DNA of 64,000 bases from Pseudoxanthobacter soli DSM 19599 (GTDB lineage: Bacteria; Pseudomonadota; Alphaproteobacteria; Rhizobiales; Segnochrobactraceae): positions 124,001-188,000 of the forward strand of contig NZ_FRXO01000001.1 in the NCBI RefSeq assembly GCF_900148505.1, read 5' to 3'. Position numbers and translations under genes: made by a program. This document shows, piece after piece, positions 32,332 through 40,877 of this stretch (positions are counted from its first letter, which is position 1; every line of letters begins with the position of its first letter). Under the pieces are notes generated by a model, which saw only the letters and a program-made list of their open reading frames with translations, was not told where the DNA came from and made no database searches.

Positions 32332-32805
32332 TCAGGCGGCCTGTTCGACCGCGGTCTCGATCTGCCGGGCGTTCGCCGCCGGCGTGGAGATCGCGATGGT
32401 CCGCGGCTTCAGCGCCTCGGGAATCTCCCGCGCGAGGTCGATATGCAGGAGGCCGTTCTCAAGGCTGGCGCCCTTCACGACCACGTAGTCGGCGAGCTGG
32501 AACCGGCGCTCGAAAGCGCGCGAGGCGATACCGCGATAGAGAACCGCGCGGCCTTCCTCGGCCGCCTCCGCCTTCTCGCCCTTCACGTTGAGCGTGTTCT
32601 CGCGAACCTCGATGGTGAGGTCCTTGTCGGAGAAGCCGGCGATCGCCATGGTGATGCGATAGGCGTTGTCGCCGGTGCGCTCGATATTGTAGGGCGGGTA
32701 GGCAGGCGCGGCATTATCGGCACCGGCGAACTGGTCGATCGCCTGGAACAGGCGGTCGAATCCGACGGTGGAACGGTAGAGCGGGCTGAGATCGAAGTGA
32801 CGCAT
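32332..32805 (-). CDS. Hsp20 family small heat-shock protein
   Basis: ATP-independent cytoplasmic holdase chaperone of the IbpA/HspA class. The 157-residue protein has an N-terminal segment (RHFDLSPLYRSTVGFDRLF) typical of bacterial class A proteins. The alpha-crystallin domain runs about 36-130 (YNIERTGDNAYRITMAIAGF, ENTLNVKGEK, RAFERRFQLADYVVVKGASL), followed by an IxI-type tail (RTIAIST). The ATG at 32805 has a strong AAAGGAGG site. Upstream lie a sigma-32-type promoter and a leader with ROSE thermometer features, listed separately, so heat induction at both transcription and translation is likely. Confidence 0.93.
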   Translation of the reverse strand: MRHFDLSPLYRSTVGFDRLFQAIDQFAGADNAAPAYPPYNIERTGDNAYRITMAIAGFSDKDLTIEVRENTLNVKGEKAEAAEEGRAVLYRGIASRAFERRFQLADYVVVKGASLENGLLHIDLAREIPEALKPRTIAISTPAANARQIETAVEQAA

Positions 32806-32904
32806 GATGTCCTCCTTTGGAGCAACGAGTGCGATTTGATTGCCGGATTTCCCGCCATCATGGCCGGGAGGTCGGCATCGGTGCGGACCCGTCTGGCGTC
32901 CGCA
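32806..32904 (-). ncRNA. ROSE-like RNA thermometer in the hsp20 leader
   Basis: The predicted 5' leader of about 99 nt can fold into consecutive stems. A 5' stem pairs GCGGAC with GTCCGC (32883-32888 with 32898-32903). A middle stem lies at 32851-32868, of the form CCC-bulge-GCCAT/ATGGC-GGG. The last hairpin (32812-32822) masks the ribosome site. On the minus strand this last part reads TTGCTCCAAAGGAGGA: the UUGCU motif next to a Shine-Dalgarno sequence paired to CUCC, as in rhizobial ROSE elements of hsp20 genes. The fold is inferred by eye. Confidence 0.62.
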
Positions 32905-32910
32905 AACGGG

Positions 32911-32939
32911 AGATAGGAATGCCCTCCGAAGGCTTCAAG
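32911..32939 (-). promoter_or_regulatory. sigma-32 (RpoH) type promoter of hsp20
   Basis: On the minus strand CTTGAA (32939-32934), a 17-bp spacer and CTATCT (32916-32911) match the alphaproteobacterial RpoH pattern CTTGAA-N17-C(C/T)ATNT. The implied start near 32904 gives a 5' leader of about 99 nt, the usual ROSE length. Confidence 0.68.
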
Positions 32940-33019
32940 ACCCTCGTCGACGGCGTGCATGCGATCGCCGGAGCGAAGCCATCCGCGGCTGGCTGCCGCG
33001 CCGGAGAGGGGGCTTGACC

Positions 33020-34069
33020 GTGGCCGCGCCGGATGCGGAAGGCCGGGAAGAAGAGGGGGCGGCGCCCGTCGCCTCGACGGCGGCCGATCTCGCCAAGGCC
33101 GGCATTGCGGGCAAGGCGAGCCTGCTTGCGCTCGAGGGTGCGCCAGTGCCTTCCGGCGGCGTCGTCGAGATGGTGCAGGGTCGTCGCGGCGTGCCGCTCC
33201 GGCTGGCGCGCTGGCGGGCAGACCCCGGAACCACCCCGCGCGGCACCGTGTTCGTGCTGCTCGGCCGCGCCGACTTCATCGAGAAATATCTCGAAGTCGT
33301 GGCCGATCTGCGCGCCCGCGGCTATGCCGTCGTGGTGCACGAGCCGCGCGGTCAGGGACACTCGGGCCGGCTGATCCGCGGCCAGAACTGGGGTCATGTC
33401 GCGAGCTTCCACGACTATGTCGCCGATCTCGACACGGTCATCCGCGTCGCCAAACGCCCGACGGACGGCCTGCCGCTCCCGAAGCCCTATGTGCTGCTCG
33501 GCCACTCGGCGGGCGGCACGGTTGCGCTGATGGCCTCCTACCGCCTCCAGCGCGACATCGACCGCATCGTCGCCGTCGCGCCGCTGATCGGCTTCTCGGG
33601 AATCGGCATGCCCGGCTGGATGCTCGGTCTCGTGATCGGCGCGGCGCGTCTCGCCGGGTTCGGCCGCCGGCCCTCACGGGCCCGCCCGCAGCCGCCGCAA
33701 CTCGCCTTCGACGGCAATCCGCTGACGTCCGATCCGGTGCGGTTCGCCCGCATCGGCGCTTATCTCTCGGCCGATCCCGGGCTCGTCGTCGGCCCGCCGA
33801 CCTTCGGATGGGTCAAGGCGGCGCGGGACGCGATGCTGATCCTGCACAAGCCGGACCTGATCGCTCGGCTGACGACCCCGACGCTGCTGTTCGCCTGCGG
33901 CGCGGACCGGGTGGTGGCGCCCGATGCGATCGAGCGGTTCGGCAGGCTCTTGCCGGCGGGCGGCACCGTGCTGGTGCCTTGGGCGCGCCATGAGCTGATG
34001 ATGGAGCGCGACGCTCTGCGCGCCGAATTCTGGGCCGCGTTCGACGCGTTCGTTGCCGGCGGCGACTGA
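33020..34069 (+). CDS. alpha/beta hydrolase, PldB/lysophospholipase-like
   Basis: A 349-residue alpha/beta hydrolase of the Hydrolase_4 (monoacylglycerol lipase/lysophospholipase L2) type. The nucleophile elbow is LLGHSAGGTVALMAS near residue 165. The acidic residue is likely in FACGADRVVAPD near 295 and the histidine in WARHELMME near 322. HEPRGQGHSGR near 112 is typical of this subgroup. No signal peptide is evident. The start is a GTG at 33020, placed 8 nt after a GGAGAGGGGG site; a TTG two codons earlier is an alternative. The substrate is unknown; a lipid ester is inferred. It converges on purD. Confidence 0.82.
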   Translation: MAAPDAEGREEEGAAPVASTAADLAKAGIAGKASLLALEGAPVPSGGVVEMVQGRRGVPLRLARWRADPGTTPRGTVFVLLGRADFIEKYLEVVADLRARGYAVVVHEPRGQGHSGRLIRGQNWGHVASFHDYVADLDTVIRVAKRPTDGLPLPKPYVLLGHSAGGTVALMASYRLQRDIDRIVAVAPLIGFSGIGMPGWMLGLVIGAARLAGFGRRPSRARPQPPQLAFDGNPLTSDPVRFARIGAYLSADPGLVVGPPTFGWVKAARDAMLILHKPDLIARLTTPTLLFACGADRVVAPDAIERFGRLLPAGGTVLVPWARHELMMERDALRAEFWAAFDAFVAGGD

Positions 34070-39485: not shown

Positions 39486-40877
39486 ATGGCCGCCGCAACC
39501 GAACTCGACCGCACCGGCACCGACTATCTCGATCCGAGGCGCCTTGAAGATGCCGCCGCCGCGCTCGTGGAGGCCGCCCGCAAGGCCGGCGCCGACGCCG
39601 CCGACACGGTTGTCGTGCGTGGCGTGTCCGTCTCCGTCTCGGTGCGCGACGGCGCGGTGGAGGACAGCGAGCGGTCGGAGGGCGACGATTTCGCGCTTCG
39701 CGTGTTCGTCGGCCGCCGCAGCGCCAGCGTTTCCACCAACGCTCTCGGTGATCCCAAGGCGATCGCCGAGCGGGCTGTCGCCATGGCGCGCGTCGCCCCC
39801 GAGGATCGTTTCGCCGGGCTTGCAGACCGGGCGCTGATCGCGTCTCGCGAAGCCGTCTCGGCCGCCGCGGCGGCGCTCGACCTGTTCGATCCCGCTGTTC
39901 CGGCCGTGGAGGCGCTGACGGAGAGCGCGCTCGAGGCCGAGGCCGCCGCGCTCGGCGTCGCCGGCGTAACGCGGTCCGGCGGTGCCGGCGCGGCCTGGAG
40001 CCTCGGTGGCCTCGTGCTCGTCACCTCCGACGGCTTTTCCGGTTCTTATGTCGCGACGCGCCACGGCCGCTCGGCCACGGCGGTCGCGGGCGAGGGCACC
40101 GGCATGGAGCGCGACTACTGGTCGGCCTCGGCGATCCACGGGGCCGATCTCCAGAATGCGGATGTCATCGGCCGCATCGCCGGCGAGCGCGCGGTGCGCC
40201 GGCTCGCGCCGCGCAAGGTGCCGACGGCACGCACCACCGTCGTCTACGAGCCGCGTGCCGCGGGCAGCCTGATCGGCCACCTCGCCGGCGCGATCAACGC
40301 GGCTTCGATCGCCCGTGGCACGAGCTTCCTGAAGGAACGGATGGGCGAGCGGGTGTTCGCCGCCGGCATCCGCATCACCGACGATCCGACGAGGCCGCGC
40401 GGCCTCGGTTCGCGGCCGTTCGACGGCGAGGGCATCGTCGGTGGCCCGCTGTCGCTCATCGAGGACGGCGTGCTGCAGTGCTGGCTGCTCGATTCCGCCA
40501 CCGGCCGCGAACTCGGCCTTGCCACCAACGGCCGCGCCGCGCGTGGAGCCGGTGCGCCCTCGCCGGGCACCACCAATCTCACGCTGTCGCCCGGAAGCGT
40601 GTCGCCCGAGGACCTCATCAAGGAAATCGGCACCGGCTTCTACGTCACCGACCTCATCGGCCATGGTGCCAACATCGTCACCGGCGACTATAGCCGCGGT
40701 GCTGCCGGATTCTGGATCGAGAACGGCGAGATCGCGTATCCGGTGAGCGAGGTCACCATCGCGGGCCGGCTCGGCGACATGTTCGTGGCCGCGCGGCCGG
40801 CGAACGACCTCGAACTGCGCTTCGCGACGAACGCACCCACCGTCGCCATCGAGGGAATGACCGTTGCCGGACGTTGA
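39486..40877 (+). CDS. pmbA: metalloprotease subunit TldE/PmbA
   Basis: Non-catalytic partner of the TldD/TldE heterodimeric metalloprotease, known from maturation of microcin B17 and degradation of CcdA in E. coli. The 463-residue protein shows the family pattern VSVSVRDGAVEDSERSEGDD, RIAGERAVRRLAPRKVPTA near residue 233 and GFYVTDLIGHGANIVTGDYS near 382. It lacks the HExxxH metal site that TldD has, as expected. The start at 39486 has GGAG at 11 nt; an ATG at 39447 is an alternative. It overlaps the next gene by 14 nt. Its partner tldD lies 4.7 kb away on the other strand. Confidence 0.9.
   Translation: MAAATELDRTGTDYLDPRRLEDAAAALVEAARKAGADAADTVVVRGVSVSVSVRDGAVEDSERSEGDDFALRVFVGRRSASVSTNALGDPKAIAERAVAMARVAPEDRFAGLADRALIASREAVSAAAAALDLFDPAVPAVEALTESALEAEAAALGVAGVTRSGGAGAAWSLGGLVLVTSDGFSGSYVATRHGRSATAVAGEGTGMERDYWSASAIHGADLQNADVIGRIAGERAVRRLAPRKVPTARTTVVYEPRAAGSLIGHLAGAINAASIARGTSFLKERMGERVFAAGIRITDDPTRPRGLGSRPFDGEGIVGGPLSLIEDGVLQCWLLDSATGRELGLATNGRAARGAGAPSPGTTNLTLSPGSVSPEDLIKEIGTGFYVTDLIGHGANIVTGDYSRGAAGFWIENGEIAYPVSEVTIAGRLGDMFVAARPANDLELRFATNAPTVAIEGMTVAGR

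Follow-up and report, generated by a model that had tools for sequence, protein, structure and literature searches.

The hsp20 gene of Pseudoxanthobacter soli very probably carries a ROSE-family RNA thermometer behind an RpoH (sigma-32) promoter, and its upstream sequence suggests that heat most likely activates the gene at two levels, transcription and translation. The leader that follows the promoter keeps its fold among relatives, is homologous to ROSE elements recognized by Rfam and is linked to hsp20. All positions refer to the window, the 64,000-nucleotide stretch of DNA that was analyzed.

hsp20 and its RpoH-type promoter

The hsp20 gene is located on the minus strand at 32332-32805 and encodes a small heat-shock protein of 157 aa (Pfam PF00011 (HSP20), 68.5 bits, above the cut-off). 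On the same strand, 3' of the gene, an intrinsic-terminator-like hairpin is found at 32259-32236; the mRNA is therefore probably a single-gene transcript comprising hsp20 alone. In the region 32840-33030, hsp20 faces away from a divergent alpha/beta hydrolase-like gene on the plus strand. The open reading frame of this gene was called from a TTG at 32840, inside the hsp20 leader, which is probably too early.

The promoter reads CTTGAA-N17-CTATCT at 32939-32911 on the minus strand, or in equivalent notation CTTGAA-N16-CCTATCT, with the -35 element CTTGAA at 32934-32939, which is conserved in the orthologues, and the -10 element CCTATCT at 32911-32917 (CTATCT at 32916-32911). The pattern CTTGAA-N17-CYAHNT has this single match in the 64-kb window, compared with 0.01 expected. 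The stricter pattern CTTGAA-N17-CYATNT has five matches in the 5.16-Mb genome against two for the reversed control pattern, and two of the five are located upstream of the two hsp20 genes of the genome. For Sinorhizobium meliloti, the consensus sequences CTTGAA-N15-16-CCTATAT for RpoH1 and CTTGCC-N15-16-CCTATCT for RpoH2 have been reported (PMC4843759). The hsp20 promoter falls within this alphaproteobacterial pattern: its -35 element corresponds exactly to that of RpoH1, while the -10 element is exactly that of RpoH2 and one base away from that of RpoH1, giving 12 of 13 positions in agreement with RpoH1. A cognate RpoH sigma factor is encoded in the genome (TIGR02392, 372.9 bits compared with a curated cut-off of 323.1).

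To this we add the orthologous loci, a set of 83 made up of 80 Hsp20-protein relatives, nearly all from Hyphomicrobiales, two genomes of the window's family and the window itself. A CTTG...-10 promoter of the same kind, with a spacing of 16-17 bp, is present in 79 of them, and 77 of these 79 also carry U(U/C)GCU in the vicinity of the start codon. Promoter, sigma factor and conservation point to RpoH-dependent transcription of hsp20 in P. soli, with a predicted transcription start near 32904 as judged from the promoter spacing.

Architecture of the leader

From the predicted start at 32904 the leader extends over 99 nt to 32806, where it ends with TTGCTCCAAAGGAGGACATC directly before the ATG at 32805. 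The elements named in the preliminary description are all present on the minus strand, namely the CTTGAA-N17-CTATCT promoter, a leader of about 99 nt and two stems in addition to that at the Shine-Dalgarno (SD) sequence. Together with the start codon the thermometer-type leader covers 32803-32904.

Three hairpins are predicted by folding. Hairpin I (32882-32904), TGCGGAC-G-CC-AGAC-GG-GTCCGCA, consists of 7 bp, a bulged G and 2 further bp; compensatory changes are seen in seven of its eight modelled pairs, and it is the part of the leader best aligned by Rfam RF00435. Hairpin II, with the core TCCCG-G-CC-ATGAT-GG-CGGGA (32850-32869), repeats the design of hairpin I, a bulged G and a CC-GG cap, on a different helix; it is defined by folding and by alignment columns added by hand. 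The third, the SD hairpin GTT-G-CTCC-AAA-GGAG-GAC (32809-32826), pairs the SD sequence GGAGGA (32810-32815) with a stretch containing TTGCT (32825-32821), around a bulged G at 32823 and a U.G wobble, and 99.4% of its cells are paired across 71 sequences. It follows the same general plan as hairpins I and II: a helix, a bulged G on the 5' side, further pairs and a loop. Finally, an outer stem between CGCA (32833-32830) and TGCG (32804-32801) overlaps the start codon in part. In 58% of the leaders a helix of at least 4 bp involves the AUG, compared with 21% when the partners are shuffled.

As a single sequence, the window leader folds with a z of -2.4, a modest gain over chance. As for the bulged-G/CC-GG design, 45 of 74 leaders have two such hairpins and 66 of 74 at least one, while among 1480 shuffled sequences two were found in none and one in 46. 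Across relatives the helices of hairpins I and II vary in sequence and keep their pairs; the loops of the leader hairpins are not conserved.

Conservation and covariation of the fold

For the analysis of covariation 71 leaders were aligned, with the window and its taxonomic family left out; the mean column identity is 35%. From this alignment RNAalifold, unprompted, recovered two of the hairpins, I and the SD hairpin including its bulged G, and did not recover hairpin II. Over the 71 leaders 96.8% of the cells of the consensus structure are paired, and nine of the 13 pairs show two-sided changes. Shuffles and slid controls, the latter preserving the relatedness of the sequences, served for comparison. 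Two-sided changes occur in 138 cells, against 43.5 for the shuffles and 10-26 for the slid controls; the covariation scores are 0.463 for the leaders, 0.199 for the shuffles and no more than 0.093 for the slid controls. The SD hairpin is the least variable part of the leader: three of its five pairs (columns 150-169, 153-167 and 154-166) almost never vary, and the bulged G is kept.

Two covariance models were used. R1 is a held-out test, containing neither the window nor its family; it finds the leader in the window at 56.4 bits with an E-value of 1.3e-10, and beyond the leader it has no other match at E<=1 in the 5.16-Mb genome. R2, likewise held-out, for which the hairpin II columns were added by hand to the alignment of R1, scores the leader at 57.7 bits. 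Weaker R1 matches in the window, e.g. at 39782-39869 (E 0.055), are at chance level. The covariation in the 71 relatives and the held-out match are strong evidence that the predicted fold is not a chance occurrence.

The gene is common to all relatives, and some similarity of the leaders is expected from kinship; hsp20 might then be controlled by its promoter only, behind a leader whose similarity is incidental and was inherited with the locus. We regard this as extremely unlikely, since at the given column identity the two-sided changes nevertheless keep the pairs well above the slid controls, and since the leader occurs in many families of the order.

Two side observations were made among the relatives. 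In the leaders of two pond Hyphomicrobiales metagenome-assembled genomes (loci L042 and L059) the RpoH promoter is kept, but some 25 nt upstream of the start codon ATGCAGCTTCAAAGGAGTGCAT takes the place of U(U/C)GCU and gives an SD hairpin of another kind, whose 5-bp base is perfect. In another relative, a suhB/mmgR sRNA (RF00519, 70.6 bits; L017, 178-251, minus strand) was identified close to hsp20.

Membership in the ROSE family

Thermometers of the ROSE type are defined by a stem containing a bulged G, in which U(U/C)GCU pairs imperfectly with the SD sequence (PMC11342760), and contain two to four stem-loops (PMC4166951). This signature is found at 32826-32809, where U(U/C)GCU, the bulged G and the U.G wobble are followed by the SD sequence, and it is conserved in the 71 leaders. 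The 5' UTR of this small heat-shock gene has three hairpins, a number that also lies in the reported range.

The Rfam model of the family gave a different answer. At the gathering cut-off no Rfam family matched in the window and RF00435 (ROSE) had no match across the window's genome, while an element in a Bradyrhizobium genome was found as a positive control; other Rfam families seen in the window at relaxed E-values are at chance level. On the leader RF00435 reaches 17 bits, compared with a threshold of 45, with the alignment mainly at hairpin I. The preliminary description had named the lack of a ROSE covariance hit as an outcome that would refute a thermometer, and at the Rfam cut-off this outcome formally occurred. 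The held-out model R1 does find the leader, and the reciprocal search was positive: R2, whose alignment of hsp20 leaders took no sequence from Rfam, matches each of the 10 RF00435-positive loci that were tested, at identical coordinates and with E-values of 1e-6 to 4e-4. Among 150 Hyphomicrobiales genomes RF00435 matches 10 and R2 matches 94, spread over many families of the order. All 29 top-scoring R2 loci examined, the window's own left out, are located directly upstream of hsp20 and have an RpoH-like promoter, as judged with a loose promoter pattern. Because R2 recovers all ten RF00435 loci in register and matches so many more genomes, the sub-threshold Rfam score reflects a narrow RF00435 model and not an absence of ROSE. 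By structure, and most likely also by descent, the leader is a member of the ROSE family, though one outside the Rfam model.

The two repeated bulged-G hairpins could also be taken for a binding platform, and the leader for a non-thermosensing element that responds to a protein, a small RNA or, as a riboswitch, to a ligand. Since no Rfam family was matched at the cut-off, the loops are not conserved and the leader is homologous to Rfam-recognized ROSE elements that precede genes of this same family, we consider such an element very unlikely.

Calculated temperature response and proposed mechanism

Folding of the window leader between 25 and 45 °C, as proposed in the preliminary description, predicts the SD hairpin and little opening of it: the unpaired probability of the SD sequence increases from 0.08 at 25 °C to 0.17 at 45 °C (ViennaRNA, nearest-neighbour). 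The leaders recognized by RF00435 show equally little predicted melting, and hence the calculation does not discriminate. For the window alone, SD occlusion does not differ from that obtained with a shuffled upstream leader (153/300), whereas over the set of 71 leaders the median openness of the SD sequence at 37 °C is 0.105, compared with 0.305 after shuffling. At 37 °C the calculated energy of the SD hairpin is -5.1 kcal/mol with the bulged G and -8.9 kcal/mol after its removal. This stabilization agrees with published mutants of the ROSE-like oppF thermometer, in which the equivalent deletion weakens heat induction (PMC11342760).

Given the small calculated melting of the SD hairpin, the conserved leader might mainly serve mRNA stability, with protective 5' hairpins or a binding site for an RNase or another protein, and heat control might be exerted by RpoH transcription only. 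Hairpins I and II are indeed the strongest stems and covary, and a stabilizing role has been suggested for the first ROSE hairpin of Pseudomonas ibpA (PMC3669281). A pure stability element would, however, not be expected to conserve an SD-occluding fold with a destabilizing bulge, and it is the SD hairpin, with its bulged G, that is most invariant. We therefore consider a role in stability alone improbable.

A thermometer behind an RpoH promoter, as favored here, would act as follows. Heat would raise RpoH activity and thereby the amount of hsp20 mRNA with its 99-nt leader. At low temperature the last hairpin would pair UUGCUCC with the SD sequence GGAGGA around the bulged G and the U.G wobble, and the short outer stem would extend into the AUG, such that ribosome loading is blocked. 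Upon warming the weak SD hairpin would open and translation begin; hairpins I and II, which are strong, would remain folded as a scaffold. Both layers of the preliminary description, a sigma-32 promoter and a ROSE-like thermometer at hsp20, are supported by sequence and conservation; that they operate in the cell, including melting of the SD hairpin and translational control in P. soli, we infer.

Comparison with known thermometers

The founding member of ROSE RF00435 is hspA of Bradyrhizobium japonicum. Like the RF00435 elements, the window leader is located upstream of an alphaproteobacterial hsp20, has a first hairpin of 6-7 bp with a bulged G and a CC/GG cap, and ends with a UUGCU-SD hairpin with a bulged G; R2 matches the RF00435 loci in register. 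It differs in hairpin II, which has the bulged-G/CC-GG cap, while the RF00435-type leaders examined have this motif at most once and lack it in hairpin II. The SD stem is also shorter, with only the 4-bp outer stem, whereas in the RF00435 consensus numerous further pairs extend it across the start codon.

In alpha- and gammaproteobacteria, more than 40 thermometers of the ROSE type have been reported (PMC4166951). As the preliminary description noted for rhizobial small heat-shock genes, the combination with RpoH has also been reported, one case being S. meliloti ibpA, which is RpoH1-dependent, as shown after an acid shift (PMC2976971), and for which a ROSE-like leader has been predicted and observed in RNA reads (PMC2873474). 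A study on Mesorhizobium loti remarks on ROSE and RpoH as multiple regulation (PMC3989490). What S. meliloti ibpA shares with the window is the arrangement, a small heat-shock gene with both layers of control (PMC2976971, PMC2873474, PMC3989490). Pseudomonas ibpA likewise combines sigma-32-type transcription with a ROSE-type SD hairpin, in P. putida with a short ROSE, and here the first hairpin is stable and the second melts (PMC3669281); these gammaproteobacterial thermometers have only two hairpins, the window leader three. Providencia stuartii oppF shares U(U/C)GCU, the bulged G and the neighbouring U.G wobble, a motif whose importance was shown by crystal structure and mutants (PMC11342760), while the gene and the upstream architecture are different. 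Two-layer control by RpoH and ROSE is hence already established, and the window adds a well-supported member. It supports an RpoH promoter with a ROSE leader as a standard hsp20 arrangement across Hyphomicrobiales, beyond the model rhizobia. As the Rfam model misses most such leaders in the order, Rfam-based annotations understate the frequency of predicted translational heat control.

A more far-reaching reading is offered only tentatively, as we find it rather doubtful. The window may represent a large Hyphomicrobiales ROSE sub-family, most of which escapes Rfam. In this sub-family hairpins I and II, sharing the bulged-G/CC-GG topology and resembling the SD hairpin, would be functional parts of the switch, through tuning, tertiary contacts or protein binding, and not a passive scaffold. 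No description of the doubled bulged-G hairpin or of the extent of the sub-family was found in the open-access literature, which is weak evidence of novelty as the 2005 ROSE survey was not covered.

Other heat-shock genes of the genome

The second hsp20 of the genome (G000:C2:660038-660600; L086, 1313-1875) has an RpoH-type promoter, CTTGAA-N17-CCATAT, but lacks a ROSE-type leader, the covariance models giving no second match in the genome. Both groESL operons (L099, about 1358-1384, and L100, about 1917-1942) carry CIRCE-like inverted repeats, TGGCACTC...GAGTGCCA. The chaperonins therefore appear to be controlled by HrcA, in contrast to the RpoH promoter and ROSE leader that appear to control hsp20.
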